The notes under the pieces were generated by a model that was not told the DNA's origin, searched no databases, and saw only the letters and a list, made by a program, of their open reading frames with translations. From Baffinella frigidus (lineage: Eukaryota > Cryptophyceae > Cryptomonadales > Baffinellaceae), in assembly GCA_026770585.1 (NCBI GenBank), contig MU646752.1, positions 255,212 to 285,543 on the forward strand: a stretch of 30,332 nucleotides of DNA. The letters run 5' to 3'. The translations under genes and the position numbers were made by a program. Below are positions 4,876 to 30,332 of the stretch, piece after piece (the stretch's first letter is position 1; each line of letters opens with the position of its first letter).

Positions 4876-5598
4876 ATGTCCGTCCCTTCGAATCAGACGC
4901 TGATCCTGAAGGTGGGCTCCTCCATCGATGCGAATAGCGAACTCGGAGCGTGTGAATATCCAGATCGGGTTGGGTGTGTGGTGAGGAACATAAGCACGTT
5001 TCATGCTCCCACAGGGGTTCAAGGACCACGCAGACTACCGCAATGTGATTACTTTTCTCAAGGAGCTTGGCGTCATGGCTGGATGCATGTTCATCAACCC
5101 GTCGAGCATTGTCCCGGACGCATACAACAAGGTCGAGCCCCTGCCTCGCCCGATGCCGGGGCTTCTTGCGAGAAGGGCTCACGCTGAAACCGTGAAGAAC
5201 TGTAACTGCGAAACTGCAGCCGGACGGGCTCTGCACTCCACATGCGCGAAACCCGCCAGCTGTTGATGAATCTCTGTCTTCGCGCAGGATGATGGGGGCC
5301 AGATCGCCTATGTCAACTACCACTCCCCCGCGGCCGCGGCAAGGTCGCTCCAGAAGTGCCAGGTAGATCTACCAGCCCTCCCGTCTCTTTCGTCTTGAGC
5401 TCGTCGCATATGAGTGCATTCCAGAAACCCGACTGAATTTGTTGATGACGACTCTGTTGGTTCATGGATCACTGATACTGCCAACCCTCCAGCGCTACGC
5501 GGCTCAGCTCGACCAAGGCACAGCCAAGCAATATGGATTCCTCGCCCGGCTCACAGTCGGTTGCAAGGACAGAAACGTTACTGCGGCATCCGACTCAG
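4876..5598 (+). other. N-terminal region of the kinase gene (RRM-like pattern, weak)
   Basis: Exons 4876-4911, 5015-5131 and 5288-5362 join in phase 0. They read MSVPSNQTLILK, GFKDHADYRNVITFLKELGV onward, and DDGGQIAYVNYHSPAAAARS onward. A helix, a short strand, then GQIAYVNY followed by an Ala-rich helix resembles helix 1 to helix 2 of an RRM, with GQIAYVNY in the RNP1 place, but the aromatic positions are not canonical. The next exon starts at 5493 (RYAAQLDQGTAKQYGFLARL). It can end at ACA|GTCGGT (5555, phase 0) or at CAG|GTCTCG (5598, phase 1). Only the former fits the next exon. Confidence 0.45.
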
Positions 5599-8500
5599 GT
5601 CTCGGCCCCGCGAGTCTCTACCTGCAACCAGCCCCTTTGAGTGACGGCATTCGTTTGTGACCGTCCTGCTCGTTTACTGAGACTCTGTTCGCGGGGCGTT
5701 GAGCAGACGAGGGGGAGTCGCTCTGCGAGCACCTTGAGAGGTTGCTGCGTGGCGCGCCCGGTGGAATTGATGGTGTGCAGGTCTGATTCCGCCCAAATCC
5801 ACTCAAAATGCTACAGGGGACCGATAGCCCCGGATATCTGGTGTACCGTGTTCTAATTCCGGCCCCTTTTAGTCTTCTGTGTGTGGAATACCCCACCTCT
5901 GAGTACGAGTCCAGGAAATCCGTCCTTGAGAAGAGATGTTTGGTGAAAGGTTTTGTGTAGACAACGCTTCCGCGCCCCGATCCGGGAAACTAGGAGCATC
6001 CAATGGCTCCACGGTCAACCTGAAATTCAGGTTGTCATCTCCTGACTTTTCCTCATCACGGGCAAAAACAAGTTTTTGCTGACGAGAAAACCTATTTTGG
6101 GAGTACACGTACGTCTATTCACCTTCTTACAATGCATTTAGTCAAAGACTCTTGGAAGGACCGTAGGCTTCCGGATTTGGGCGCGGCTTCTGAGCCAGGT
6201 GGATCTAAATTTTCTTCACACCTCATTTGCATTTTCACGAGGAGGGACCGAAGTTGAGACGTGAACGAAGTGAACCCAACCTTATTCACGCCTTGCAGGT
6301 CGAGAGCATCGCCAGGGAGCGCGGGGAGTGGCAGGTTCTTGGCACCCCCACCCCCCCCACCTGAATCCCGACCCTGCTCGTTTTCACCCGCCTGTCAGGA
6401 TGCACTGTGCTCAACTTGACTCGATTCCTCTACCGTGAATGCTGCCAGCTGGTCTTTCACCAACCATCGGTGAAGGGTCTCCCCAGCTGTTTCCTTGACG
6501 AAGGGTCTTCTTTTCAGGACGAAGTCAACGACGCTGGCGGCGTCAAGACATTCGTGCAGGTACGCTAGAGCGGATTTCAGATCTGATGGTCACGAAAACA
6601 GTTCAACAATCGGACACGCGTTGACGATGCTGGTACAGCAACTTTGACTCTGGACAATTTGCATTTATTTGGAGGCTATTGCATCTGAAACTTGCTCTAC
6701 TTCCCAACACCATTATCCTTGAAACAAACAAATCCCGACCCCGCGATAAGTTCATTCGCACTCTCTTCCCCCCCGTCCGTGTGAGCTTTCCTTCGATGCT
6801 GTGGAGCCTCCCACTCAAATGACTACATGTAACACGTTTGAACCGGAACTGGAACCTTTTCTTTAATCTGTATTGGGAGTGGTCACGTACCTCCCCGGAT
6901 ATCCGGGGAAGACGTACCCCGTAGCCTTTTGAGCGGGTTAGTTGTGAAACTGAAACTTTTCGAAACTGACGAGCGCGAGATGCTTTGCAGGCACACTGTG
7001 CTGCAAGGCTTGAGTGGTACTTCAGCACGGTCCGCCTCCTCGCAACACCTTCCCAAAACCAGGTGCTTAATGTTTGGTGCTTGGTGCATGGTGCTTGGTT
7101 CCCACGGGTTGGTATAAAGCTTCGGGCGCATGAAACAGAGCGCGGGATTGCGTTATGTTGAGGATGAGCTAGTTCGGTCTCAACTACAGGGTGCAGGGCA
7201 TGCAGCACCGGCGTGTCGTGCAGGCATCACCGTAGTCTGAATCCTTCCGCGACAAATCCCAAAACTGAAATGAGACTTCCACGGCGGGTGACTGAACTGG
7301 GCAGGGTGTGTATCAACCGACGACTAAACTGGGTGCACTTTGTACCAGGAAAAGTATCAGATTGGTGAGCAGTGGTGGAAGTCTCTCTGAAATACTCCTT
7401 CGTACCTCGCGGCCTGGTGCAGGGGGCAGCAGGCGGGCAGCAGCGCGCCGCGACATCCGTCCCAGGTCTTGCCCCTGCGAGTCTATACCTGTAAACACCA
7501 CCTATGCAAGACGGCGTTCGTTTGTGACCATCTTTCGCGTTTACTGACACCCTGGATGTGGGGCGTTCAGAATCCGAAGCGGCGACGCTCTGCCAGCACC
7601 TTGAGGGGTTGCTGCGCGACACGCCTGGTGGCCTTCATGCCCCGCAGGTCTGATTCCGCACAAAAAACGACCCCCCCCGGAGCGCGAGTCCCACTCGAGG
7701 CTAGAAATGTGATCATTTTAAAACAGATCTTCTTTTACGAGTGATGAAAAAAAAGAGGTGTGTGGTAATTTTCACACAAATGGGGGCGTTTGGTCACGTA
7801 TCTGACATAAATCCGTCAGACACGTGACCAAGCCCGCCCGTGACTGGCACTAAATTTAACAACCTGACATTTAAAATAGTCCCATTTCTAGCCTCGAGTG
7901 GTCCAGGAGTAGCGTTCTCCAGAAGAGATTGGGCAGAAGTTTTGGGCAGACACCGCTTCTTCTGAGCCGTGTGAATCTCAATTTATTGTCCCACCTCATA
8001 TCAGCCCCCCCGAGGAGTGAACGAAGTGAAGCCCACCTTTCGCGCCTTGCAGGTCGGGTTCATCGCCAGGGAGCGCGGGGAGTGGCAGGTGCTGCGCAAA
8101 CGCACCCCTCCCACCTGAAACCCGACCCTGCATGTTCGTACCCGCCTGTCAGGATGCACTGTGCTCAACTTGTTTCGATTCCACTGCCGTGAATGCTGCC
8201 AGCTGGTCTTTCACCAACCATCGGTCAAGGGTCTCCCCAGCTGTTTCCTTGACGAAGGGTCTTCTTTTCAGGACGAAGTCAACGAAGCTGGCGGCGTCAA
8301 GAAATTCGTGCAGGTATGCCAGAGCGGATTTCGGATCTGATTGCCACGAAAACAGTTCAACAATGGTACACGTTGACGATGCTGACACTACAAAGTTGGC
8401 TCTAAATTATTTGGTGACCATTGGCTCAGAATCTCGCTCTCCATGCCAGAGCCCATGTCTGAACGTCACATCGCAACGTTTCGCTTTAAAAGTGTTTCGT

Positions 8501-11500
8501 GGTACAGGTTCTCACACTTTTGCGGTTCTGCGCTATTGACTTTTTGCGTGTTTCTCATACAATTATGTCACACATCTCACTAATCAACTTTAGGCAAATT
8601 ATCGCTGGTGACCTGGCGTGGACTGCCCAAAATTCTCCTTGCAAAGACCAAATTGCCACGAGACTGTGCAGGCGCATTCGCTTCCACCAGTCAGCTGTGA
8701 GCTTCCTCTGATGCAAGACAGCCTCATTCGGTGTCAAACTGAAACGTTTTAACACTGTGAGAGCGATGTTCCTTGCAGGACAACTGTGCTGGGAAGCTTG
8801 AGTGGTACCACGACGGGGGAAGCGACAAGATTCGCCTCGCAGCAACTTCCGAACCCGAGGTGCTTGGAGCTTGGTGCTCATTTTTCATGGGTTGATTGAT
8901 ACCAAGCCCCGGCTACAGGACATCGGTCTCTAGTTTTGTGTTATGTTGAGGATGAGATTAAGAGGTTGGGATGGTTCAATCTTACCGATAGGATGCAGGG
9001 AATGCAGCCCTAGCGTCGTCGAGGAATCACTGCAGACTGAATCCTTCCGCGACAAATCCCAAAACTGAAATGAGACTTCCACGGCGGGTGACTGAACTGG
9101 GCAGGGTGTGTATCAACCGATGACTAAACTGGGTGCACTTTGTACCAGGAAAAGTATCAGATTGGTGAGCAGTGGTGGAAGTCTCTCTGAAATACTCCTT
9201 CGTACCTCGCGGCCTGGTGCAGGGGGCAGCAGGCGGGCAGCAGCGCGCCGCGACATCCGTCCCAGGTCTTGCCCCTGCGAGTCTATACCTGTAAACACCA
9301 CCTATGCAAGACGGCGTTCGTTTGTGACCATCTTTCGCGTTTACTGACACCCTGGATGTGGGGCGTTCAGAATCCGAAGCGGCGACGCTCTGCCAGCACC
9401 TTGAGGGGTTGCTGCACAGCACGAACGACACCCGTGCATTCTATGCCACGCAGGTCTGATTCCGCCCCAGAACCCCCCCCCTGAGGCACGAGTCCAGGAG
9501 TACAGTTCTCCAGACGCTGTTTTTGGAAAACGTGGTGGACAGACACCGCTTCCACTTGAGGCTGGAACAGGGAGTGTTTTTGTGGGGTTCTTGAATGCAA
9601 ACCAGTCACAGGCGGGTTTGGGCACGTTATTGCTCGATATCGAGCAGTAACGTGACCAAACGCGACTATTTGTGTGAAAATTACTACACAGCGCCCCATT
9701 TGTAAAGGACCCCCGGGTCCAAAACAGACATTTCTAGCCTCAAGTGGTTCTTCTGAGCCGTGTGCATGTAAATGTATCTTTAAACCACATTCCCCCGAAG
9801 AGTGAACGAAGTTTAACCCTTTTATTTGCGCGTTGCAGGTCGGGGTTCTCGCCAGGGAGCGCAGGGAGTGGCAGGTGCTGGGCACCCCACCCCACTCTGC
9901 TCAACTTGTTTCCATTCTTCTGTCAGGATGCACTCTGCTCAACTTGTTTCAATTCTGCTGCCGGTCAAGGGTCTCCTCAGCTCTTTCCTTGACGAAGAGT
10001 CCTCTTTTCAGGACGAAGTAAAAGAAGCTGGTGGAATCAAGAAATTCGTGCAGGTATGCCAAAGCTGATTTCAGATCTGCTGGCCACGAAAACAGTTCAA
10101 CACGATGCTGGTTACACGTTGACGATGCTGGCACTACAACGTTGATCTTTGTGAATTTTGAATCATTTCTTCGATGACCATTAGACTGAAACTCGTTCTA
10201 CCTCCCGATATCCTCCTTGACAAGACCAAATGTCGACCCTGAGACAAGTGCATTCGCACTCTCTTCCCCCCGTCAGTGTGAGCCTGCCTTCGATGCAGGG
10301 GAACCTCGTTTGGAATGAAACTGAAACGTTTCGAAACTGACGAGCGCGGTTGTGCAGAACCGGTGTGCTGGGAAGCTTGAATGGCATCACGATGGGCCAC
10401 CGGATGGGGGGAGCGACCTGGTCTGCCTGGCGGAGTCTCCCGATGCATCGGGGGGCGCAGTGGAGGCGTCGTCCTTGTGCGTCGAGGCAGCCTCTCCGGA
10501 GGCGAGCGCCGAGGAGGGAGCAGCGGTCAGCGGCGAGGAGGGCGCGCTGGAGGCGTGGAGGGCTGGTGTTTGGACCTATCTCAATACGACTGGGCCGGTA
10601 CAGACCCTCAACACTTTCCCAAGCTTGACCCCTTTCCCCGAAAACTGGCTGCCTCCAATCCCAGCTCTGGGCTTTCTCGGTGTGTCTGGACACTTTTGGG
10701 ATCTCTTTGGCGACGTTTTGATTTGGTAGACTCTGAGCCAAGGCGCATGCCCTCAACGTTCAACCCACTCGCCAGGATTTCGCGGTGTCTCTCATCAAAA
10801 AGGTCCCGCATCCCCTCCAACACACCCTCAACCTCAGACCCATCTGCATCGTTGCGTGAGCCCGTTCCAGCTTTGAAACACTCCTTCTCCGCCCAAACAC
10901 ATTCATGCGATTAATTCGTGCCGCGGGCGTAGATTCCGCCGCCGGGGGGGAAAGCGAACTACTCCAGTGCATGGAAGCTGCTGCACTTCGATCCACAGAA
11001 GCGATTCTTTTTCGGGGAGGGGGGGCTCGTCAGTGCAAAAAACACCAAAAGCAGCAAGCGGAAGCTCCTCGGCAGAGGCGTGACCCCCGCCGAGGCGCCG
11101 TCCTCTTGCGGCGGAGGAGCGGCGAGAGGAAACGCAGCGCCCCCCTCCATCGCGCCGATCAGCACCCACCGTTTGGAGGAGCCTGTGGGGACAAACCCCT
11201 GGCTCCTCCAAGCTCCTGGCTCCTCCTGCAGGGGTCTTGAGGAGGACTACCGGCTGATGTTGCTGGCGTACCTGCGCGCGGTGGGCAGGCCAGTCGACAG
11301 GCGCCAGCCGGTGTTCTTGTCCGGGGATACCTTCTTCGGGGAAAAGCAACCCGGAGTCGTGTTTCTGGAACTCTACGTGGGGGCGATCGTTGTAGGGAAG
11401 GATGATCGCTTCATTAAGACTAAAGATGAGAGCGGCGTTCCGTGGCTGGCGGCAGCGGAACAGCAGGAGCCGATTTCTCCTCCCAGCGGCGCTGATCCTG

Positions 11501-14500
11501 CCGGAGGCGCGGAGGAGCGAGGCCGGCGGGAGGCACTTGAGGCGGATCAAGAGTTCGCCTCTTCCAGCGAGGAGCTTGCCGGAGTGGAGGAGGCACGCAA
11601 CCAGCAGGAGCGTGCGGGAGTGGGCGCGCGATCTCAAGTTGGAGGGCCTGCAGTCAGCGAGGGTCCAGCGCAGACGGGGGGGGCTCCGCCGAAGTTTGCA
11701 TGCACTTTCTTCCGTACGCCCCCCCCCGAACCCCTCTCAGGCCCACTCCTTTTCGCTTTCCCGCAACACCAGCGCCCACGGCTCAACGGATTTTTATTCA
11801 TCACATCCACCGGGGCACGAGCCCAAGCACCACGCGTTCTCGCCGGACGGGAAGCGCGTGCTCGCGAAAGCTCATCTACCACTAGATAGGAGGAAGTGGA
11901 AAATCCCGCACGCACGGACGCCTGAGCGCCCGGACGTGCGAGATGTGCGCGTGCGTCCCGCGCTTCCTGCGCGAGACCGCGCGCGCGCTCACGTGAGAGC
12001 AGAAAGCCACTCTGAGACGCTGAAGTATCGGCGCGTGCCAGGCAAGGACACATGCCGCAAGGGGGACAGTTGCCCGTTCTCGCACGACCCCAGCGCGCCG
12101 GACGCGCCGATCAAGAGCGCCCCCCCCCCGCGCGTCTCTCCCTCCGAGCCCCGCCCCGCTGAGGTGAAGGTCGAGGAAGACGCAGGCGCGGCGGAGGCGG
12201 AGGAGGCGGGGGCCAGGGAAGACGCGGGCGACCCGCGGAACAAGGCTCTGGCGGAGATCACCGAGGAGGGTAACTTTGCGCGCTTCTGTCGCCTGCTGCA
12301 CGAGGTCAACCTTGAAACATATGTCGTTGTGCGTTGTGCGTGCAGCATAGCAGGTGGAATGTTGCTTGCTTAGGACGGGTGCGTCGTCAGCATGCGGTCT
12401 CTATCGCCAGACACGACGTAGGTGTTCCACGTGGCACGTCTTTTGACAAAGTTTTGGTCCGAGGAACGCAGGTGTGCCCGGAGGTGCTCTCCGCGATCTT
12501 CCGCATCAAGTGGCGCGAAAATACCGGGGGCGAATGGGCGGACGGTGCGGCGTGCGGGGGGGCGCTGTTTGCCAAGATCGATGACGTCACCCAGCGCAAG
12601 CTCCTCGGGAAAGCAGCAGTGAACCAACTTCGAGAAGGTCTTTGAATGTTTCAGTAGGGGACGAACCTCTCCCTTTGGAGGACTGGGGGCTTTCACATTT
12701 CTTTTAGTTTTCGCCTTCCTCAGGGTTGCGCGAAGAGCAGCTACACACCAGTCTGGCCGTCGAGTGGTTGACAACAAACAGCTTGACGTTGTGCCTCTGA
12801 TGTGCGTGGATGCGTTAGTGAATTTTATGCGAATTTTATGAAATCAACGTGACGTTGATGCCTTCGGAGTGACGTTGAGGTCTGTGGGCTCAGGCGCGAG
12901 CAAGAAGTGGGACGTCACGCTCCTCACCAGCCTCCTGCTCTTCCAGCCCGGCTACTGCAAAGTCCAGCCCGTCCACCACCTTTCTGGTGATAAGCCCGGT
13001 CGAGTGACCTTCCCGGTGTACAGGATTTCCCGGTTCAGTCGACAGTAGTTGAACTCTCCCTCCACACCACAGGTGTGGAACTGATGGTAGTTGACAACAC
13101 CGGTTATATATTTCATTTTTGAGGGTGTCGACAACGTCGAGGAAGCGTCTAACCCACTGCTGTTTCTGGTGACTGCCTCTGTGCCCTACACGCCACACAC
13201 GCGCTTCTGAAGGGGACCTATACACCACCAACCAAACCTCTGTATTAGTCCAACACCGCATGCTTACCACCCTCTATCCGCCTCGTTACCCGTGGCTACT
13301 CAACTGACCTTGAGGGTTGAGGGTGAAGGCGTTCTGTGCTACAGGGGTTCAGGGTGTCGGGGGAGCACGGCGTACTGGTCCACGCGGGCTCGCATCAGAA
13401 CTGATGAGAAAGCATGTGAAGCCCCACGGCACTGCCTTGACAAGTCCCGGCTCCTCGCAGGTGACAAGGATCATGTCGTCGTCGAGGCTCTCGAGAAGAT
13501 TCGTAAATCCCGCAACGCCATCGCACACTCAACCAAGCGCTCAATGGCCGACGCGGACTTCAAGGCCTCGTGGGCGGGGGTGGTTGGTTCGCTTGAATCG
13601 ATCATATCGACGTTTCCGGCAGACGACACTCAGGTCCGGGTCGAGACAATTTCTCCTGGGGGTTGTGCCACGACTGGGGTTTGAAATTATAGATTGGAGT
13701 GCAACAGAAAAATGGGCGGACTCACGGTCTACGCCAGCTCACAAGTGAGAATTTGCACAAGTCGATTCTCCACATGTTCCCCACGAATTGTCGAATGCAA
13801 CACGCCAAAAGGAAGTAGCCCACTGGGCAAAAATGTGCAATTTGTACCAGGAAACACTTTCAAAGCGAAACGTCGCGTTCTGAAATTTCCACTTGTGACC
13901 TGGCGTGGACGCATGGTTTGCACAAAAACTGAACTGGTTGGCACCGCAGGTACAGCAGCTGCGCGGAAACATTGAAAAGGTGTACACGGAGAAGGGCCTG
14001 TCGTCGCACGTCGATCACTTCATGACTGTCATCTCGGTGCTTTCACCTCACAGACCTTGCTATGCGTGTGCCCCCGGTGGCCTCTTCCAACTATGAGACG
14101 CTCTCGGACCACCACGGCATTGAAACGATGCGTGAACGCGGGCATTGTTTGACCTTGCCGCTCTCGCACAGGCCAAGTACGCTGGCTTCCACCCTCAGCC
14201 CGAAACCCCTCACCGTTACGCTCTGAAACAGGGCGTAGAGTCGGAGATGCAGCGTCTGGCGGAAGAACAGGAGCGGAACGTGACCAAGACGGAGGCTGGC
14301 CGCATGATCGAGACCGGCATCCAGAAGGTCTTGAATCCATCGCACAAATTCGACCCACACAGGCGATTGCCCCCATACGATCTGTCCTCCCTACACCTTG
14401 ACCGCATGTTACAGTCAACTTCCGAACTTGTCTGATAATTTGCCGATTCATCCGAAGCGGGCCCATCGATTCGCAGACTTTAGGATCCCTCTTTTCTAGG

Positions 14501-17500
14501 CTTGAGACCGTTTCATTGTGAGTAACCAAGAAGACGGATGAGGTTGTCTGACCTAAGACGCAAACCGCACACCCTTCAGGTTTCCATTGCCTGTTCATCT
14601 CGACAACGGGGCAGACTACACGCTGCTCCGACGCGCTGGGGAAGGAGGTTTTGGCACGGTGTTTGAGGCTTATGACCCAGTGACGAGGGGTCTCGTCGCT
14701 TTCAAGAAATGCGAAGCTCAGGGGGAGTTGGACCGCGGGGACAGGGAGGCCAAGATTCTGCAGACGCTGTTGAAGTTGAAGCACCCCCACATCGTCGCCT
14801 TTCTCTCCAGGTCAGCGTTTCCAGGCCAGCCTCTGGTTCTGAATTCCAATGAGTTCTGCAGAATTTGAGTCTCTCGCCGTTTGCAAAAGGAGCAGCGTCG
14901 GTGATACTCACGCAATGTCCGCACGCACAGCTCGACGTTGCAGGGCCAGCAGATCGTCGTGATGGAGCTGGTCAAAGGGGATTCGCTGAAATCGTTTCTC
15001 GACAACGAGGTCATCCTGCAGAAGTTGCTTGCCCTGGCGCTTTGGACGACGGGTTGCTGTTTTGTGCCCCTTCTTCCTGTCAACTGATCTCGACACCTTC
15101 CCTGAGAAGTAACTGAACCATGCTGAATCAGCTTCGGCAGCAGCATCTGCCTCTTTTCATGGTGTGTGAAGTCTGGTGAAACCATTGCAGGGCGCGTTCG
15201 GCGTGGAGAGGGCCAAGACCCTGATGCTGCAGCTCACAGACGGGATGAGCGCCGTCCACTCCCTCAAGATCTCTCACCGGGACCTCAAGCCTGGTACCCA
15301 TCCTCCCCTCCGAAATATATCCAGACGAAAAAGTCAATCCCTCGCCCCCTTGCCACAGTCATGTTTGGTTCGAACCCGCACTTCTTTGAGCCCAGGCCAT
15401 TCCAAGGTGGCCACCTTGGAAAGCCCGAAGTCGTCGCGTGGGCCCAAGTGAAAAGCATCTCTCGCCTCGTCACATGTGAGGCCTTGTTGCAACTTCTGAG
15501 ATCCGGGATTCCTGGCAGCGAACATCATGTTTGACGAGGTCACTGGGATCGCGACCATCGTCGACTTCGGGCTTTCCAAGGTGTGTCTTGATTTGGATTC
15601 TGGCTGAAAAGTGGCTAAACGTTGCACAGGGTCTTGGTTCTTGGTTCTTCTGGAACTGGTATGCACCCATTGGCAATGGTATTTCCGACCGGGGCCAGGA
15701 GCTGATCCCAGAAAGGATCGAACCCACCGTGGGAATGATGCCCAGGGTTCTAACGCTCCTGATGGGAATGATTGACCAGGTCTTAACGAGACTCTTGGGA
15801 ATCGGAGCAAACGCTCTTGCCCACGGTCTTTAGTGTTAGACGGTGCACACTTCCCGATAAAGCCGGTAAGGCTTTCCCCCCACTCGGATGACCCCAGCCG
15901 GGACAAAACTGATTCAGACAACTAACGTTTCAATCAAACACGAACCAAACCAAAGACCAAAAACCAATCGCAGGGTGGGGCGACTCAGGTTGGTCGCTGG
16001 ATCAGAATTTGGTGCTTGACTGACGCAAACCCTGCCCCCGAACCCAGGAGCAAAACACGAACTCGACCGTCACAAACTCGTCGGGAGCAAAGATCGGGAC
16101 GGTGCTGTACATGAGCCCCGAGCAGACAGAGGGCGACGTGTCCAAAATTGGTACGTCTTTTAGGTCCTTTAGGTTTTTTTGTGCTCCCAGCATAGGCAGA
16201 CACCCCACCCTTCCGAAAGGACCCTTTACGCAGGAAGCCCTCCAGTGCAGAGACTCGTGGCAGAACCGTCTAAAGGGTGATCTACTGAAGGATTAAAACG
16301 TTGCGGATTTTAGAGGGTGGGGCGGACCATAAGTTGGCTGTCCACTTACGAATCTCAAAAGAGAGCTGTGCCGTTCAGCAAAAAGAAGGTCACTTACTAG
16401 CTTTCCAGGGCCAGGGTTGAACCCACTTAGGAGGCGTCCGCGTTGGCCACTGACATCGATGTGTAGCACCGTGGAGTTCGATAAACCCTGCCTCTCACAA
16501 AACGAACAAGAGCCAGCAACTTTCCCATCGGCCAAGAACCTCCTCGATTCGAGCGTTCAGCTCCCGCTATTAGCAGCCTGGCCAATAGCAAACTGGCAGA
16601 CAAGGACCAGATCCTTAAGACCTCCCGGAGGAGCGTGATAAGCAGAAACAAGCCCGCCTCCAATCCGGTGACATGTTTAAGTTAAACAACAATGGGTTCC
16701 TATTGGTCATGGGAGTTGGCCGAAGGTTAATTAGGGGCCCATGTGAATTTAATGAGGGCCATGATCCGGTTTGATAGGCCATTTTCGTTTAAATTAAACA
16801 TGTTCCCGGATGAATTTGCGCAGGTGCTCCCGCGGACGTGTGGGCGCTCGGCGTAATCTTCTACGAGATCCTCACGGGCCAACACCCGTTCCTCCCCCTC
16901 TGCCTCCGCCCCTCGCCGTCGCCCGCCGCCGGGGGAAGTTCCCCGAAGCCTCCGCTGATGATGTCGAAGAAGGAGGAGGGCGTCCTGGTCTGGCGGATCT
17001 GCGAAATGGAGTGTCCGCCGCTGCCTGTTACGCCTGCCAGTGCCAGGTTGCTCAAATCCCGTTGGCGATGATTCATCTGCGCTCTTGTCTTCGGTGTGTG
17101 TAGAGGGTTACTTGGGTTGAGGCTGGTACGCCCACCTTTCAGCTCAGACGATATCCAGTCTAAGTTGGAAGCCGCGCCGTGAATTTACCATCCAGCATGA
17201 ACCAGCGAGACGAGTAAAACCTGGGCCTGGTGAGCAGCTTGGCCGAAGTGGTCTTCCGGGCACTGAAGAAGGACCAGGACGAGCGCTACAAAGATGCTGG
17301 GGAGATGCATGCGCACCTCAAGGTCATACACCCCATTCTTCTCCAACGCTTCTATGATTGGACCTGATCTGTCGAATCTGTCATGGATGCTGCTGCGCGT
17401 TGGTATGATTTGGTTGACACTATCTTGCGCAGAGGGCGGGTTGCTGACTCAGACATAAACACTCATTCTTCCTTGTTTCCGTGGTGCCTGCAGGCTGGCC

Positions 17501-18410
17501 CGCTTTGTCAGGCACACGTGGGGGCCTCTGGCTTGGTACTGAATCGTCTTTCTCCCTCCTCCGCAGGAAACCTTCGCAAGCCCCGAAGCCCCCGTCGAAC
17601 CGGAGGGAGGCTCCGCACGCCCCCACGACTCGTGGACTGAAATCGAACTCGCTGCATTCGTGCGGCGCCTGGGACCGAAGTTTTCCGAGGCGGCGGCTAC
17701 GATTGAGGAAGACTGTGTCAATGGCATGCTCTGGAACGAACTGGTCAAGGCAATCCCCCTGCCCTCGACTTTCCCCTCATGCCGGTCTCTTTATGTACAG
17801 AGGTCACTCGAAAACAAGGTCGGCCATGGCGTGAGAGGCTACAGTAAGCCTATGCGTACTGGCCTAGGGTTCTGGCTGAGTCATCACAGGGCAAACCACA
17901 TAGCCTATGTTCGAGAGTAAGGCACTGCGGCGCTGAACCTCACTCAAGACCCTGGACTCTCAACCCTCAACCCTACACCCTCAGCCACCCTACGAGCAGT
18001 GTGTGTCCCTGTTTTCGAGTAACCCCTCTAGCCTGGGGGCTCGCAACGTACTTCTGTCTCGGAACGGTGCTCCTTGGTTGGAACAGTTTGCACGGCTCAG
18101 TTGCGCCTTGGCCCAAGGCGAGCCTCATGCAGTGCAGTTTGGATCGACAGAGTGCGGCAAGGTAGACTCGCTGACACAGGCTCCGCCGACGGTTGACCCG
18201 TGTCTTGTCTTCCTGCCACAAAGCCTACCCGGTTTAGGTATCGTTATGGTACAAAACCTGCCCGGTTTGATCAACGGTCGCGCGGGGGAGTTCCCTCTGA
18301 TGAGTCGTTTCCGGCAGGAGAAGGCCATCACGAAGAGCCTCGCGGACGGAGGGTTGGGGCTCAGCCCCTTGCAGCTCAAGCGCGTGCAGCAGGAGCTGCG
18401 CGTGTTGTAG
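4876..18410 (+). CDS. Multidomain protein kinase with winged-helix-like repeats, CCCH-like finger, DZIP3-type HEPN and SAM-like domain
   Basis: About 30 exons: 4876-4911, 5015-5131, 5288-5362, 5493-5555, 6299-6334, 6518-6559, 6991-7062, 8053-8088, 8272-8313, 8779-8859, 9839-9874, 10012-10053, 10358-10597, 10933-11652, 11741-12304, 12472-12637, 12894-12986, 13461-13633, 13950-14036, 14172-14327, 14580-14810, 14931-15009, 15191-15293, 15519-15580, 15974-15988, 16048-16150, 16824-17046, 17238-17322, 17567-17743, 18318-18410. This gives about 1,350 codons. The ATG at 4876 is the first in-frame ATG of the exon opened by ACTCTCAG, so a 5' exon could be missing. Phases agree at almost every joint from 12304 to the TAG. 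Uncertain joints are 5555-6299, 7062-8053, 8859-9839, 10597-10933, 11652-11741 and 14327-14580. The kinase keeps all catalytic motifs and the HEPN keeps R-x4-H, so both may be active. The likely role is RNA-linked signalling or stress/defence response, which is inference. An annotation pipeline might split it into two or three genes. Confidence 0.8.
6299..7062 (+). other. Cassette 1 of three: exons A1, B1, C1 (winged-helix/LOTUS-like unit)
   Basis: The exons are 6299-6334 (VESIARERGEWQ), 6518-6559 (DEVNDAGGVKTFVQ) and 6991-7062 (AHCAARLEWYFSTVRLL onward). All are phase 0 at both ends. The pattern helix-RERGEW, then E-x2-AGG-x-K-x-FVQ, then LEW and a strand ending in RL resembles the GG-LKxFL ... 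VxL core of LOTUS/OST-HTH and related winged helices. This copy is the most diverged. It lacks four residues of C2 in frame (the HDGGSD segment). Confidence 0.6.
7237..7614 (+). repeat. 378-bp block repeated at 9037-9414 with one visible mismatch
   Basis: The block starts at CTGAATCCTTCCGCG and is repeated exactly 1,800 bp downstream. The only difference I see is C at 7321 versus T at 9121. It lies between cassettes and matches the region around exon 5493-5598 only loosely. It contains TTTGTACCAG|GAAAAGTATCAG, an exon-like start reading EKYQIGEQWWKSL and then TGA, so its coding status is unresolved. Confidence 0.9.
7691..7901. mobile_element. 211-bp TIR element (CCACTCGAGG...CCTCGAGTGG) in a kinase-gene intron
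   Basis: The terminal inverted repeats are CCACTCGAGGCTAGAAATG and its complement. A TC dinucleotide flanks it on both sides. The paralogous site in the next cassette (around 9493, CGAGTCCAGGAG) lacks the element and has one TC, so it is a filled site with a 2-bp target duplication. An inner hairpin (TTGGTCACGTATCTGAC with its partner) lies near 7799. No ORF is present, so it is MITE-like. Confidence 0.85.
8053..8859 (+). other. Cassette 2 of three: exons A2, B2, C2
   Basis: The exons are 8053-8088 (VGFIARERGEWQ), 8272-8313 (DEVNEAGGVKKFVQ) and 8779-8859 (DNCAGKLEWYHDGGSDKIRL onward). Exon sizes are 36, 42 and 81 nt, all phase 0. Most base differences from the other copies in exon B fall at third codon positions in this frame, which supports the frame and purifying selection. 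Confidence 0.65.
9037..9414 (+). repeat. Second copy of the 378-bp near-identical block
   Basis: This copy is identical to 7237-7614 except for one base. Cassettes on either side differ far more, which suggests recent gene conversion or a recent unequal exchange. Confidence 0.9.
9552..9747. mobile_element. 196-bp TIR element of the same CCACTYGAGG family
   Basis: It begins CCACTTGAGGCT and ends AGCCTCAAGTGG. It is flanked by TT, and the matching empty site at about 7957 in cassette 2 (CACCGCTTCTTCTGAG) has one TT. An inner palindrome (TTGCTCGATATCGAGCA) is present. Its position differs from that of the element at 7691, so it is an independent insertion. Confidence 0.85.
9839..10597 (+). other. 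Cassette 3 of three: exons A3, B3, C3 with acidic/Ala-rich extension
   Basis: The exons are 9839-9874 (VGVLARERREWQ), 10012-10053 (DEVKEAGGIKKFVQ) and 10358-10597, which starts NRCAGKLEWHHDGPPDGGSD and runs on into an Ala/Glu/Ser-rich low-complexity tail. The end could be GCT G|GTGTTT at 10565 (phase 1) or CCG|GTACAG at 10597 (phase 0). The second fits an exon start at 10933. Confidence 0.6.
10933..11652 (+). other. Low-complexity region with a second winged-helix-like segment (kinase gene)
   Basis: This long open frame runs from TAG|ATT at 10933. It includes LLHFDPQKRFFFGEGG, then Pro/Ser-rich sequence, then a globular stretch at about 11230-11425 (EEDYRLMLLAYLRAVGRPVD onward) with FLELYVGAIVVGKDDRFIK at its end. 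Helix, turn, helix and a two-strand wing would fit another LOTUS/winged-helix-like unit. The rest is Glu/Ala-rich. The donor GCA|GTCAGC at 11652 is a guess that keeps phase with 11741. Confidence 0.5.
11741..12304 (+). other. CCCH zinc-finger-like exon of the kinase gene
   Basis: In this frame TCRKGDSCPFSHDP lies at 12050-12091, giving C-x5-C-x3-H (codons 12053, 12071, 12083), the second half of a CCCH finger. The preceding YRRVPGKD is also typical, but no Cys stands at the expected first ligand position (LKYRRVPG where LCKY would be expected). The finger may therefore be degenerate or the exon start different. An acidic Ala/Glu linker follows, and the exon ends CAC GAG|GTCAAC in phase 0. Confidence 0.6.
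12472..13633 (+). other. HEPN domain, DZIP3 type (three exons of the kinase gene)
   Basis: Exons 12472-12637, 12894-12986 and 13461-13633 join G|GC and G|GT in matching phase 1. The first two give VCPEVLSAIFRIKW, LFAKIDDVTQRKLLGKAA and KWDVTLLTSLLLF. The third gives EALEKIRKSRNAIAHS and then MADADFKASWAGVVGSLESI. The DxTLL motif, the R-x4-H signature (RNAIAH, 13511-13528) and the D-x-F-x3-W segment match the HEPN domain of DZIP3-type proteins, as I recall the family. HEPN domains with R-x4-6-H are commonly RNases. Activity here is not shown. Confidence 0.75.
13950..14327 (+). other. Helical linker between HEPN and kinase
   Basis: Exons 13950-14036 (VQQLRGNIEKVYTEKGLSSH onward) and 14172-14327 (AKYAGFHPQPETPHRYALKQ onward) are both phase 0. 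The second has a charged helix (ESEMQRLAEEQERN) that may form a coiled coil. The joint to the kinase exon at 14580 needs phase 2. A GC donor further on at CACAG|GCGATT (about 14376) would give the right phase, or a small exon is missing. Confidence 0.6.
16155..16270. repeat. Copy of the GGTCCTTTAGGTT dispersed family in a kinase intron
   Basis: It starts five bases after the donor at 16150 and reads TTTTAGGTCCTTTAGGTTTT, CTCCCAGCATAGGCAGACACC, then CAGTGCAGAGACTCGTGGCAGAA, like the copies at 3098-4340. Confidence 0.8.
16664..16810. mobile_element. 147-bp TIR element (TCCGG-ACATGTTTAA) just before an exon
   Basis: The ends are TCCGGTGACATGTTTAAGTT and AATTAAACATGTTCCCGGA. A second 147-bp copy lies at 25736-25882. 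The inner end is only 13 nt from the splice acceptor at 16823. No ORF. Confidence 0.85.
17567..18410 (+). other. C-terminal SAM-like domain and stop of the kinase gene
   Basis: Exons 17567-17743 and 18318-18410 join in phase 0 (CTG|GTCAAG, CCGGCAG|GAG). They read SWTEIELAAFVRRLGPKF, IEEDCVNGMLWNEL and then EKAITKSLADGGLGLSPLQL onward to TAG. The tryptophan start, FVRRLG, the D-x-VNG-x-LWNEL turn and the final helix fit a SAM domain, a protein or RNA interaction module. The intron holds a few CCCTCAACCCTACACC units near 17956, again C-rich in sense. Confidence 0.65.
18096..18128 (+). repeat. Hairpin motif CGCCTTGGCCCAAGGCG, inverted copy at 19000-19033
   Basis: A perfect 8-bp inverted repeat with a one-base loop lies in a block of about 30 bp (CTCAGTTGCGCC...GAGCCTCAT). 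The same block appears in inverse orientation at 19000-19033. The first copy lies in the last intron of the kinase gene, the second in the downstream intergenic DNA. Confidence 0.8.
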
Positions 18411-19589: not shown

Positions 19590-19829
19590 NNNNNNNNNNN
19601 NNNNNNNNNNNNNNNNNNNNNNNNNNNNNNNNNNNNNNNNNNNNNNNNNNNNNNNNNNNNNNNNNNNNNNNNNNNNNNNNNNNNNNNNNNNNNNNNNNNN
19701 NNNNNNNNNNNNNNNNNNNNNNNNNNNNNNNNNNNNNNNNNNNNNNNNNNNNNNNNNNNNNNNNNNNNNNNNNNNNNNNNNNNNNNNNNNNNNNNNNNNN
19801 NNNNNNNNNNNNNNNNNNNNNNNNNNNNN
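19590..19829. other. Assembly gap (240 N)
   Basis: A run of N. It interrupts the minus-strand SHIPPO gene, whose exon starting at 19896 runs into it. Confidence 1.
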
Positions 19830-22800
19830 CTCCTCCTTCCCCCTCTGCAAAAGGTCCATTCCCCTCCAACAGATCCACCTCCTCCAATGCAAACGTCTGT
19901 TTTAGGGTTTGGGGTTTAGGTTTGAGGGTTTATGGTTTGGGGTTTGGGGTTTATGGTTTATGGTTTATAGTTTATGGTTTATGGTTTATGGTTTCGGGTT
20001 TAGGGATGAGGATTTAGGGTTCAGGGTTTTGGGATTGCGGGTTCCGGGTTTAGGGTTTTGGATTTAGGGCTTCGGGTTTCCAACCTTGAGCGCAGCGCAG
20101 GTTTATGGTTTATGGTTTGGGATCGAGGATTTACAGGGGTACCTCGCTCATAAGAAAACGTCTTCCCCTAGGACCCTACAGTAGCCCTATGTCTAGGGCC
20201 CTAGGGAAAGGCTAGGGGGGGCACGGGTTCTTATGAGCGAGGTACCCCTGTTGGGGTTCGGGTTTCCAACCTTGAGCGCAGCCATAACCTGGTCGCTCAA
20301 CGATCTCTCCGGCTGCACCTAGGGTTTCGGGTTTTGGGTTTAGGGTTTCGGGTTTCGGGTTTGGGGTTTCGGGTTTAGTGCTTAGTGCTTAGTGCTTAGG
20401 GTTTAGGGTTTAGGGTTTAGGGTTTAGGGTTTAGGGTTTGGGGTTGAGTGCTGAGGGTTTAGTGCTTAGTGCTTAGGGTCTCGGGTCTCGGGTTTAGAGT
20501 TTAGTGCTGAGGGTTTAGGGTTTAGGGTTCAGGGTTCAGGGTTTAGGGTTTAGTGCTTAGGGCTTAGTGCTTAGGGCTTAGTGCTTAGGGTTTAGGGTTT
20601 AGGGTTTAGGGTTTAGGGTTTAGCGCTTAGGGTTTAGGGTTGAGAGTTGAGAGTTTACCCCCCCCCCTCCCTCCGCGAACGCCCTTCCACCAACAGGCGC
20701 GCTCTCAGGCCGGTTTCGCCTCCTCCGAACCGGGTGCGCCAGAGGCCCCTGCACGCCATACGGTCTCGTTAGTGGATTGTTGTGACGTGAGAGGTTTCCG
20801 ACCTTGCTCATCACCAGCGCAGTACATGGTTTATGATCCTGGGCACCTTGCAGGAGGATTTCGAACATGCATGCAGCATGAAACCCCATTTCGAAAATGC
20901 ATGGAACCTACGATCCTGGGCACCCTGCAGGAGGCAACCACCTGGGGGCCTACGACGGTTTTAGCGGGGCGCATGATCAATCCATCCTTGTAACACAAAC
21001 AGCACGCCCCATATGTTCCTGGTCGCGAGGGACGGAAAAGTGCGGAGCCGCGGCCATCTGTGGATCCGTCCCAATCCCAATCGTCCCCGGTATATCATAC
21101 ATGATCACACACACAAAAAGCAATCTCTCCTGTATGTGCATACCTGATCGCGAGGGACGGTCCTCCACTCCAGGCCCTCGGATGGGGTATTCCAGGGTCG
21201 CCCTTGGAGCCATTGGGTCGCTCTTGGAGCCGTTTTCTTACTAAAGTTGACATTTGAATATCATTCTCCCTTGAAAAATTGACCTTTGAATACCCCCCCC
21301 TCCAGCCTTGCGTGGTAGACGGGAGGAGCCATCTCATGATCGAGGCACCCCTGTCATCCCTGCTGGCTGTTGAGTAGCGATCCAGGCACACACAGAACAC
21401 CGCCCCCCTCTGTACCTGATCGCGAGAGACGGTGAAATGGGGCGCCTGAATAACCCCTAAGCGATAATACCTACGACCCTTAAATAACCCCTAAGCGATA
21501 ACACCTGCGACCCTACGGTAGGCAATCCGTAGGCACATTGGGGGGTTCCTACGGATAATGTAACGGAAACTCGGCCCGAAATGGGCCGAAAATGCCTTGG
21601 TAGCCCGCTGTGTGGTATGTACCTGGTCGCGAGGGACGGTGAAATGGGGCGCCAAGGCCATCCGCGGATCCGTGCCAATCCCAATCGTCCCTGCTTGAGG
21701 GTGTAGGGTTCAGGGTTTGGGGTTTGGGGTTTGGGGTTTGAGGTTTATGGTTTATGGTTTATGGTGTGTGGTTTATGGTGTGTGGTTTATGGTCGATGGT
21801 TTGGTGTTTGGTGTTTGGTGTTTGGTGTTTGATGCTTGGAGTTTGGTGTTTGGTGTTTGGGGTTGAGGGGCTTCGTACCCGGGATATCATACATGACCGC
21901 CGCCCCCTCCCCATTCATCCCCGGATGATCCCTCCCCTAGAGTTTAGGGTTTAGGGTTTAGGGTTTAGGGTTTAGGGTTTAAGGTTTAGGGTTGGGGGTT
22001 CAGGGGTTTATGCTTTATGGTTGAGGGTTGAGGGTTTAGATTTGAGGATTTGGTGTTGTGGGTCTAGTGTTTAGTGTTTAGTGTTTAGTGTTCAGGGTCC
22101 ATGGTTTAGGGGTTTGGGTTTATGGTTTATGGTTTATGGTTTATGGTTTACGGTTTATGGTTTATGATTTATGGTTTATGGGTCAGGGTTTAGGGCTTAC
22201 CACTCGAGAATGCAAGAGGAGCCTACTTAAAACTTTCATGGCTGATTACGATTTCAAATGTGCGGCCGTAAAAGGATTTTAAAGGGCTGTGCCGAAGAAG
22301 AAAATAATATTCCATAATACATTAAAAGAGTTGCGCACCTTAAACAATTAGGAACATCGTCTTTCTATGTGAAATCCGTGACCATTATAAAAACGATCAC
22401 GGATTTCGGATAAGATTGACCAACCTCGTGTCTGTCTTGAAGCATTATTTTACATGGCTAAAAGGGGAGTCCGCTAAATTTGAGCGGACTCCCGGACGTG
22501 ACCGGTACACATCTTAATATCCTACATTTAAACAGGCCCCTCCAGCGTTCCCGTGTGGTAGGGCTTACCCGCTGCGTCTTATCGAACACCCCCCCGACGC
22601 TCGCGGCGTTGGTGACGGACGGGTCGCGCGCCCACACCGCGTGCCCCGTGTGGTTCACCAGGGGGAGGAGCGGTCCGGGGGTCTCCAGGGGCGGTGGTGC
22701 GTTACGCGAGGCTCTCCCTGCGATAGTGGAACGGCGGAATTGTCAGCGAGGCCTTCCCTGCGAGAACGGACGGGTCCGTTAGGCGTTAGGCCCGACCCGT

Positions 22801-25800
22801 GTGCGTACCGGTATCCAATTTCGGAACGTTACATGATCACGTGTTATGCTCGAGCGGACGGGTCCGTTAGGCACCACCCGAACCGGTGGGTGTTGTTGCG
22901 CGAGGCTTTCCCTGCGATAGTGGACAGGCGGAATTCTCAGCGAGGCTTTGCCTGCTCGAGAGGAGGAGCAGAACCGTGAGGACACGCCACTCTGCAAACC
23001 GATGTGCGAGTTGCCCTGCCAACTCCAGGGGGTGGACCGCTCAAACTGTACAGGGGTGCCTCGCTCATAAGAAACCGCCTCCCCCTAGGACCCTACAGTA
23101 GGAGTACGCCTAGGGCCCTACGGTGGTCCTAGGGGGGGGGGGCGGTTTCTTATGAGCGAGGTACCCCTGTAGGGCCAACGTGCGAAGCCGTCCCTGCTCG
23201 GACGGGTCCATCAGGCCCCACACACGTACAGGGGTACCTCGCTCATAAGAAAGCGCCCCCCCCCCCTGGACCACCATAGGGCCCTACCTACGCATAGGCC
23301 TGATGGGTCCTAGGGGGGGGCTGTTTCTTCTGAACGAGGCACCCCTGCACTCGACGCGGGACTGTCTCAGGTTTCAGCTTCTAGAGTTCAGGGTGTAGGG
23401 TTCAGAGATCAGGGTTCAGGGTCCAGGGTCCAGGGTCCAGGGTCCAGGGTCCAGGGTTCAGGGTTCAGGGTCCAAGGACCAGGGTCCAGGGTCCAGGGTT
23501 CAGGGTTCAGGGTCCAGAGTCGAGGGTTCAGGGTCCAGAGTCGAGGGTTTAGGGTCCAGGGTCCAGGGTCCAGGGTCCAGGGTCCAGGGTTCAGGGACGC
23601 ACCGATTGACCAAGCAACCGAATCTCCGACCATCTTGTCATACAGCTCATAATCCGCGGGGCCTGTAGGGTTCAGGGTTTAGGGGTTAGGGTATAGGGTA
23701 TAGGGTTTAGGGTTTAGGGTTCAAGGGTTCAAGGGTTTAGGGTTTAGGGTTTCAGGTTTAGGGTTTAGGGTTTAGGGTTTAGGGTTTAGGGTTTGGGGTT
23801 TGGGGTTTGGGGTTTGGGGTTTGGGGTTTATGGTTTAGGGTTTATGGTTTAGGGTTTAGGATTTAGGGTTTAGGGTTTGGGGGTTAGGGTTCAAGGTTTA
23901 GGGTTTGCCTGGCCGCCCAGCCTCCTCGTTCTTCTCGTCCCGGGACGCGCGCGGGAGTGCCTGGTTTAGTGGTTAGGGGTTAGGGTTTAGGGTTTAGGGG
24001 TTAGGGTTTAGAGGTTTAGGGTTTAGGGTTTAGGGTTTGAGGTTTAGGGTTTAGAGTTGAAGGTTTAGAGGTGAAGGTTTTAGCGTTTAGAGTTTAGGGT
24101 TCAGATGTTTAGGGTTTACCCCGCCGGTGACGCGCTCGATGCCGTTTGCGAGTGGTGTACCCGTCCAGTAGTCGCCTGGTGTAGGGTTAGGGGGTTAGGG
24201 TCTAGCCTTTGATGGACGCGACCGGTTTTAAACAGGGACACGACAGGTATCCCTTAAGTGGCGAGTAGGCTCATACGCCCTACCGTAGGGCCCTATGACC
24301 TGCCTAGGACCTCTTGTGGGCCCCGCCGGTGATACACCTTGCCTGCAACTGGGCTCGCCATGAAACACTTTTAGATCCTAGTTTTACGCAGGCAGAGGTA
24401 GGAACCCCCCCCACAAAGCGGCGGATGAGTCACCTCGCAGATGAGCCCTTCGGCAGATGAGTTCTAGCTCTTCTATTCTCAAGTTGATATGAGTGCGGTA
24501 CAAAATCGTCAACTTTAGAGTGAAAATATTGACTCAGACAGAGCTAGGAGCAACCTCGCAGATCGATCATGGCCCTTCCGACAGCGTCGTTCTCAGTATC
24601 CCTCAAGTGGCGAGGCCGTCAAATTTGATGGCCAAGAGGTCCTGGGCAGGTCCTAGGGCCCTACGGCAGGGCGTATGGGCCTACTCGCCACTTAAGGGAT
24701 ACGATGTAGGATGGCGGGTGAAGTGAAGGGTTCGGGGTGCAGGGTGTACAGTGAGGGTCACCCTCGATCTACGTAGATCGAGCATGTCTCCTCCGGCAGC
24801 GTCATCCGCCTCGAGGCGCGAGACCACAGCAGAGGGCTAGCTGCCAACCGATCGGATAGAACACCTTATCTTGCGGTTGCCCTTGCCGCAAAAGTCAACT
24901 ATTTGCGGGTATTTCCGGCAACATTTGCCAATTTTAAGGGAAAATATTAGAAGGACGCGGTGCGTAAAATGACATGTAGCTGACCTCGCAGATCGAGCAT
25001 ATCCCCTCCGGCGTCTTCCTCCTCGAGACGCGAGAGCGCCGTCCGCCTGCCACCACAGCGATGTTGAGGCTAAGCTAGCATACTTCACCCCCAAGATAGC
25101 ACAGCACGGTGGTGTAAATGATTGCCACCGTTTACGGTTGGTGCCAACCCGGACGCGAGAGCGCCGTAGATTCACAGGGGTTGACGACTGCTTGAAGGAC
25201 AAAGGCCCAAAGACCCTTGATACAAATTGTGTATCAGACGTGTGGACAAGACCATACAACACCCTGAATCTACTGAAAAAAATCACTGTTATAGTCTCCG
25301 GCAGCGTCTTCCTCCTCGAGACGCGAGAGCGCCGTCCGCCTGCCACCACAGCGATGTCGAGGCTAAGATACCATAGTTCACCCCCGAGATAGCACAGCAC
25401 GGTGGTGTAAATGGCTTCCACCATCTACCGCCTGCCACCAAGCCACCCGGCGTGAGCAGGACGCTACGGAGACGATGCACCCGAAACCCGGAACCCGAAA
25501 CCTGAACCCTGAACCGGCAGGGTCCTCCTTCTGGAGACGCGAGAGCCACCAAGCCACCCGGCGTGATAAGCGCGCCATCGCGACATGCAGGCGCTCTAAC
25601 GCTATTCAGTCAACTCACCATCGTGCGATGGTGGGGGCCTGGGCAATCTCGCGCTGCACGCGCTAACGCGCTAACTCCAACGTAAGGGCACGCGCCGCCA
25701 TACGGTCCGCCAGCAGGGCTGGTCCTGGGAACTAATCCGGGGGCATGTTAAATTCAAAAGAAAATCGACCCCTATGTGTTCAAAGGAGTTGGAAGAAGAT

Positions 25801-29162: not shown

Positions 29163-29680
29163 GGCTGGGCTCCAGCACCGCTCTCACAACCTGGGAGTCT
29201 TGACCCAGGGTCCAGCGGTTTGAACCCACGTTGATCCTTTCTAAACAGCAAAACGCCCAAAAGGAGAAATCTGCGTTGAAAGAAAGAATTCAGATTTGAC
29301 TAGTTTGACCAGTTCAAATATCAAATCAGTTTGACCAGTTTGAAGACTCAAATCGATTTGAATTAAAATCGCCGGAAGTCATGGGCCCCTTTCCTTGTTG
29401 GTGAGGTCCAGAAGGTGAATGAGCTACATTCACGAGGACCAAAGAGTTGTGACAGTTGCTGAAGGCGGCCTCTGGTGGATGCAGCGGTCGGTGGGTCTCA
29501 ATACCCCTTTCCTCGGCCCTGCCATGCAGCAACGGATTGTCAAATTTGGATCAGACTGATTGGTCCTGGGCCATCTGGCGGCGTCGCTGGAGAGAAGAGG
29601 CAAGCGGAATGCCTACCAGGATCCCGGACCGGGGGCTGCGACGTGCGGCTCGTCATCGAAGGGGAGGGCTCTCGGGGAGG
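29163..29680. promoter_or_regulatory. Divergent intergenic region between SHIPPO and secreted-protein genes
   Basis: These 518 bp lie between two start codons facing away from each other. It is the presumed shared promoter region. At 29290-29360 a short motif TTTGACCAGTTTGAA recurs (TTTGACTAG, TTTGACCAG, GATTTGA). No TATA-like box stands out. Confidence 0.4.

Positions 29681-30267: not shown

Positions 30268-30332
<65 letters not shown>
29681..30332 (+). CDS. First exon of a secreted Cys-containing protein (partial gene)
   Basis: ATG at 29681 (context GGAGGATGG) opens MASRALLLLMPLLSVGFIGG, a good signal peptide with a hydrophobic core of about 14 residues. Then come KTWTVDCKDGFDSKTCGWHE and APC, ending TGC AG|GTGCGC at 29811 in phase 2. 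Three Cys in 20 residues suggest a disulphide-bonded extracellular or lumenal domain; I do not recognise it. The following 29812-30268 holds no exon I can support and is taken as intron. Upstream in-frame ATG codons at 29456 and on would bury the signal peptide, so 29681 is preferred. Confidence 0.55.
29984..30095. repeat. Two short palindromes
   Basis: GGTCTCACCAA-T-TTGGTGAGACC lies at 29984-30006 and the 18-bp perfect palindrome GAGTACTAGCTAGTACTC at 30078-30095. Both lie in the putative first intron of the secreted-protein gene. Confidence 0.8.
30269..30332. repeat. Poly-C run at the window end (64 bases)
   Basis: A pure C run to the last base, like the run at the gap edge (19545-19589). 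Confidence 0.95.

Follow-up and report, generated by a model that had tools for sequence, protein, structure and literature searches.

The 30,332-nucleotide stretch of the Baffinella frigidus genome analyzed here (the window; contig MU646752.1, referred to as C443 of the 382-Mb genome) was found to carry, at 4876-18410 on the forward strand, a chain of coding exons in which a DZIP3-type HEPN domain precedes a Ser/Thr kinase. From the N- to the C-terminus, the encoded protein consists of an RRM-like domain, three winged-helix-like modules, a CCCH motif, the HEPN domain, the kinase, and a SAM-like end. The architecture is real and likely specified by a single gene, which belongs to a small paralogous family; the fusion of HEPN and kinase within one gene is likely rather than proven. 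A search of the genome with the HEPN protein revealed three further loci, C548/C785 (100% identical over 7855 bp, and counted as one locus), C105, and C698. The order winged-helix-like, HEPN, kinase, on one strand, was also observed at C105 and C548/C785. A reading of the letters without database searches (the sequence-only reading) had proposed one gene in which a DZIP3-type HEPN lies ahead of an apparently active kinase, and the gene model, the Pfam matches and the paralogues at C105 and C548 support this proposal; the alveolate affiliation implied by that reading was not confirmed.

The gene model comprises 34 exons that encode 1,404 codons without an internal stop, with agreeing phases and a stop codon at 18410. 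The splice phases had previously been read as consistent over nearly all joints from 12304 to the stop, and a consistent chain now extends throughout 4876-18410. All 33 introns are bounded by GT-AG, a rule that was partly imposed, because the model was built from the three-frame forward translation with hand-picked donors and acceptors. Third codon positions have a GC content of 0.76, versus 0.525 for the introns. The features of the gene are as follows.

4876-4911, 5015-5131, 5288-5362, 5493-5598 (+): exons with the start codon and the RRM-like N-terminal domain; homologous exons in C105
5707-7062 (+): winged-helix-like module 1, exons 5707-5780, 6299-6334, 6518-6559, 6991-7062
7423-7465; 7571-7647, 8053-8088, 8272-8313, 8779-8859 (+): linker exon and winged-helix-like module 2
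9223-9265; 9371-9453, 9839-9874, 10012-10053, start of 10358-10597 (+): linker exon and winged-helix-like module 3, with a sub-threshold wHTH_TTC3 match
10933-11713 (+): long exon that closes with Cys 1 of the CCCH motif; C105 and C548 gave no counterpart
11701-11713 and 12042-12085 (+): CCCH-like motif C-x7-C-x5-C-x3-H, spanning intron 11714-12041
12042-12304, 12472-12637, 12894-12986, 13461-13633 (+): exons of the DZIP3-type HEPN domain (Pfam)
13511-13528 (+): R-N-A-I-A-H, putative active site of the HEPN (R-x4-H), both R and H being kept in 4/4 copies
13950-14036, 14172-14383 (or 14362 with a GC donor) (+): HEPN-kinase linker exons
14580-14810, 14931-15009, 15191-15293, 15519-15580, 16048-16150, 16824-17046, 17235-17322 (+): exons of the protein kinase (Pfam)
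14704-14706, 15281-15283, 15563-15565 (+): kinase catalytic codons for Lys, HRD Asp and DFG Asp, by alignment to solved kinases
17567-17743, 18318-18410 (+): exons of the SAM-like C-terminal domain, with the stop; no Pfam match

The two central domains were confirmed by profile searches. HEPN_DZIP3 (PF18738) scored 26.0 bits at residues 832-912 of the full-length protein, slightly under the cut-off of 27, and the HEPN segment alone exceeded that cut-off with 30.3 and 30.8 bits. A profile match to the HEPN segment, the lack of which would have counted against the sequence-only reading, was thereby obtained. The Arg and His of the R-x4-H motif are invariant in all four copies (RNAIAH, RNALAH, RNDYSH, and RAKIKH), three of which have an Asn directly after the Arg, and much of the sequence surrounding the motif varies among them. 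In the available part of a pearl oyster study, Rx4-6H was reported in 194 of 202 DZIP3-like HEPN proteins, with Rx4H the commonest form and Asn mostly following the Arg, and degradation of foreign RNA was proposed for these proteins (PMC9646362). The RNAIAH of the window is thus an Rx4H form with Asn after Arg, as is usual in the oyster proteins. The HEPN region gave no match at E<=10 among 2223 candidates from a protein database that includes some protists (2 of 120 rows listed in one search were labeled ‘eukprot’, one of them naming Anaeramoeba); its coverage of protists is partial, and the negative result therefore has some, but limited, weight. Searches with the HEPN alignment detected no relative among 37 pattern matches in viral contigs or 28 in prokaryote contigs. 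A search with the HEPN_DZIP3 family left the own genome and all 14 control genomes without a match and was hence uninformative; the protein query aligned one exon at a time. Sequence searches of the PDB with the HEPN, winged-helix-like, RRM-like, and SAM-like parts returned nothing convincing, the best match (E 0.041, winged-helix profile) being an armadillo protein.

The Pkinase profile matched residues 1032-1234 with an E value of 8.9e-45. The Lys, the helix-C Glu, and the HRD and DFG motifs align with those of solved kinases and are also present in C105 and C548, where the piece of C548 with the Lys is a weak tblastn match. The kinase is apparently active and, by its profile match and catalytic residues, of the Ser/Thr type. 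In a search with the whole protein, 2644 matches were obtained among 7995 candidates scored; these were driven by the kinase, and the organisms named among the 120 matches listed were bacterial. Three other kinase open reading frames were inspected. Kinases joined to long LRR regions in one open frame were found in C35 (838001-846000; 3526-7005, minus strand) and C1019 (2195-4630, minus strand); several of these LRRs are of the plant-resistance type, and a SAM-like stretch without a profile match was seen by eye ahead of the C35 kinase. In C23 (429001-437000; 1539-5093, plus strand), LRRK2-like ARM repeats and a kinase share one open frame, the end of which looks by eye like a caspase-type CHAT domain, for which Pfam gave no match. 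A kinase-like match at C546:254059-254676 lies within a 13,283-aa open frame, which is either an intronless gene of very large size or an open frame of an unusual kind.

The architecture is not a product of chance, since its order recurs at C548/C785 and C105, and since the similarity to C548 marks exons and not introns. Over 12042-18410, blastn alignment of the window with C548 covered 1141 of the 2153 bases in exons and 462 of the 4216 in introns; three of the 15 exons were uncovered at the DNA level, and all three matched at the protein level. With C105, 1470 of the 2153 exonic and 1834 of the 4216 intronic bases were aligned over the same interval; since the introns align too, exons and introns are not distinguished by this comparison. 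Exons with equal phases at both ends were identified in C105 (e.g., exons 1-4, 21, 23, 24, and 26-32) and in C548 (e.g., exons 21, 22, 24, 27-30, and 32) by a search for counterparts that was restricted to matching phases. The exon that completes the third winged-helix-like module of C105 runs into the start of the HEPN domain in a single open frame (frame 2, 12900-13700), and both halves are therefore joined there without a splicing choice. SAM-like exons and a stop lie downstream of the kinase in C548, and no SAM-like match was among those listed for C105.

The weakest splice joint of the model is that from 14362/14383 to 14580, between the linker exon on the HEPN side and the first exon of the kinase. 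As read in the window, C105, and C548, a phase-2 donor is required before the kinase exon in all three loci. The window offers GT at 14383 and GC at 14362. In C105, a GC donor lies at the apparent equivalent of 14362, with GT donors only farther downstream; the C548 linker exon carries GT donors, of which the last is at 8365 in the numbering of the joined stretch. The uncertainty of this joint, the variation in its donors, and the finding of a HEPN at C698 with no kinase found downstream would fit two adjacent genes, one encoding the winged-helix-like modules and HEPN and the other the kinase and SAM-like end, which were joined here only by the choice of splice sites. We consider this arrangement quite improbable. 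Order and strand are kept at three loci, counterparts of the linker exon 14172-14383 are present in C548 and, by reading of the translation, in C105, and at none of the three loci does the first exon of the kinase contain an in-frame ATG upstream of the glycine loop. The kinase exon therefore supplies no start of its own.

The modules on either side of this core were less readily assigned. The three tandem modules in the N-terminal half are about 75-85 residues long, with four exons apiece, and were labeled winged-helix-like from their motif pattern, without profile support above the cut-off. The OST-HTH/LOTUS profile, which the sequence-only reading had named for a search, matched none of six module sequences at E<=10. 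One module copy matched wHTH_TTC3 with 17.8 bits (whole protein) or 13.3 bits (segment) against a cut-off of 27, and in a separate scan of the modules none of the six matched the TTC3-type winged helix; SAM_6 gave an equally weak match in two of the six (best E 0.14). At least 14 matches to the module were found in the own-genome search, only in C443, C105, and C785. By eye, the segments at ~7230-7640 and ~9030-9440 are nearly identical, including intron sequence, which suggests that a region around a winged-helix-like module was recently duplicated internally. The RRM-like N-terminus, overlooked in the sequence-only reading, matched RRM_1 in both members searched without significance (best E 0.13; 12.1 bits in the window, versus a cut-off of 20.7), and its four PDB matches included eIF3b RRMs at E 0.44-0.65, none significant. 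The CCCH pattern, C-x7-C-x5-C-x3-H, is created by removal of intron 11714-12041 (CTFFRKDTCRKGDSCPFSH); zf_CCCH_4 scored 26.7 bits on this segment, under its cut-off of 29. The finger that had been predicted is thus present as a pattern after splicing and falls short of its profile, and its use as a hallmark of the family was dropped. The SAM-like end, labeled by eye, is 56% identical between the window and C548, and neither of two such sequences matched the SAM profile (Pfam, E<=10). In the chain of modules as originally proposed, the HEPN and kinase therefore stand, the CCCH, SAM, and winged-helix labels are unconfirmed by profiles, and the CCCH and SAM assignments are weaker than had been assumed.

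Ratios of nonsynonymous to synonymous substitution (dN/dS) were 0.31-0.76 for HEPN (six pairs), 0.29-0.62 for the kinase (three pairs; window-C105, 0.50, bootstrap interval 0.33-0.76), and 0.26 for the SAM-like exon (one pair, 38 codons). The kinase is clearly constrained and is the least changed part (C548-C105 dN 0.115). The RRM-like part gave a ratio of 1.29 in one pair (1.30 in the bootstrap analysis, interval 0.73-2.61), and 15 pairs of winged-helix-like modules ranged from 0.39 to 1.36, with intervals below 1 in four. Because the intervals for the RRM-like part and most module pairs span 1, constraint on the proposed sensor is not proven. Diversifying selection on the sensor was likewise dropped on these values, as was a sensor changing faster than HEPN, which the dN values do not bear out.

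These findings suggested a kinase that responds to RNA and is linked to a HEPN RNase. It would work by the same logic as RNase L and IRE1, independently assembled with a different HEPN family and in the opposite order; we put the chance of this reading a little short of even. The RRM-like domain and the three winged-helix-like modules would form a sensor that binds a nucleic-acid ligand, the SAM-like domain, the kinase, or both might bring molecules together by self-association, and the kinase could then signal through autophosphorylation or other substrates. The DZIP3-type HEPN would turn into an RNase once two copies pair, and the protein may act in stress or defence, possibly as an alarm against foreign or damaged RNA. 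The architecture, its recurrence in paralogues, and the retention of the kinase catalytic residues and of R-x4-H were observed, and we infer the RNA ligand, RNA cleavage, oligomerization, and the stress or defence role. In conflict systems, RNases of the HEPN type are repeatedly found next to RNA-binding domains, according to the accessible part of one account (PMC8195603). The broader proposal, that an RNase L-like alarm arose independently in a protist lineage, in which RNA-binding modules switch an active kinase and a DZIP3-type HEPN RNase within one chain, kept as a small paralogous family whose active-site residues are intact, is more tentative, and we would sooner doubt it than rely on it.

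The main rival, which we regard as unlikely, is a kinase that is regulated by RNA in the manner of PKR and is the sole effector, with HEPN serving as a non-catalytic adaptor for RNA binding or dimerization. Catalytically inactive HEPNs with RNA-binding or sensing roles were proposed for Swt1 and nematode families in the part of the survey available (PMC3710099), and the slow change of the kinase would agree with such a role; against it, R-x4-H is invariant in 4/4 copies amid much change around the motif, and the 17 Pfam matches of the whole protein include no double-stranded-RNA-binding family. Still less probable is an ordinary modular signaling kinase with shuffling accessory domains, in which HEPN would have no special meaning. 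The LRR (C35, C1019) and ARM (C23) partners of the three other kinase open frames examined indicate that such fusions are not rare, but HEPN, linker, and kinase are kept together at three loci.

Several observations weigh against the RNA-responsive kinase with a linked RNase. The RRM and winged-helix assignments, on which its RNA-binding type depends, are all sub-threshold, and the CCCH motif was seen only in the window copy, having been found in neither C105 nor C548 by exon search and translations. The HEPN_DZIP3 score falls in the paralogues, from 21.5 bits in C548 to 12.9 in C105 (where DUF4145, at 16.4 bits, is the best Pfam match) and to no match in C698. The C698 copy has no match to the winged-helix-like modules, nor to a kinase in the ~3.4 kb readable downstream, beyond which the sequence is N; the full layout is thus seen in three of four loci, and the SAM-like end in two. 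Different donors serve the HEPN-kinase joint across the window, C105, and C548. For the RRM-like part and 11 of the 15 module pairs, 1 lies within the dN/dS interval, and the amino acids of HEPN change as fast as those of the RRM-like part (window-C105 dN 0.319 vs 0.304). Many immune families are strongly expanded, and with four loci this family is not.

The remainder of the window contains degenerate 7-base telomere-like arrays (TTTAGGG/AAACCCT variants) at 1879-2287, 2661-2856, 19901-20079, 20320-20657, 21938-22199, 23389-23596, 23666-24118, 27841-28018, and 28453-28563; similar repeats are visible in the translations of C548 and C105. An assembly gap of 240 N (19590-19829) adjoins a poly-C run, and the window ends in 64 bases of poly-C (30269-30332). 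On the minus strand, 28533-29183 is a 216-aa open frame containing PGPG-type stretches, which resemble those of sperm-tail PG-rich repeat proteins; Pfam gave no match to a query that covered most of the frame and contained a typing error. An Rfam search of the window returned nothing.

Among known systems, PKR-like RNA-sensing kinases combine RNA-binding-type modules with a kinase, as does the protein described here, which differs from them in having no double-stranded-RNA-binding family (Pfam) and in carrying HEPN and SAM-like domains. The coupling of a kinase to HEPN in eukaryotes is known from IRE1 and RNase L, in which the kinase dimer sets up the KEN RNase. The likeness lies in a kinase, a domain of the HEPN superfamily, and a sensor part in one chain; the difference is that HEPN here precedes the kinase and matches the HEPN of DZIP3. 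Neither a KEN nor an ankyrin family was among the 17 Pfam matches of the whole protein (E<=1). Judged by its sequence, the protein is not a member of the RNase L/IRE1 family, as there is no KEN match and the order is reversed. KEN proteins contain kinases, ankyrins, and sometimes CCCH fingers, as far as the available part of the survey describes them (PMC3710099). With the DZIP3/hRUL138-like proteins, the protein shares the HEPN profile match and an R-x4-H with Asn after the Arg. The partners listed for DZIP3-type HEPNs in that part, mainly from animals, are TPR, Zn-ribbon, RING, ankyrin, CARD, NACHT, DEATH, and LRR, with no kinase, in contrast to the kinase partner found here (PMC3710099). 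The same partial source describes AbiJ-type N-terminal domains of prokaryotic abortive infection that are followed, at the C-terminal side, by kinase or HEPN domains (PMC3710099). The use of both domains is shared with these fusions, but no relative of the HEPN part of the present protein was found in the prokaryote contigs. No paper was recognized as describing a HEPN-kinase of this order in a literature search conducted largely without subscription journals, which rests on the accessible parts of three papers (PMC3710099, PMC9646362, and PMC8195603). The kinase and HEPN are still together, with their active-site residues kept, in three loci. If the proposed reading is true, they would represent a second, convergent coupling of kinase and HEPN, made with a DZIP3-type HEPN from what the available part of the survey presents as a mainly animal family (PMC3710099). 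Such convergence would suggest that RNA surveillance has been solved more than once by pairing these two domains, in this case within a small family that would allow sensor, kinase, and RNase to be tested separately.

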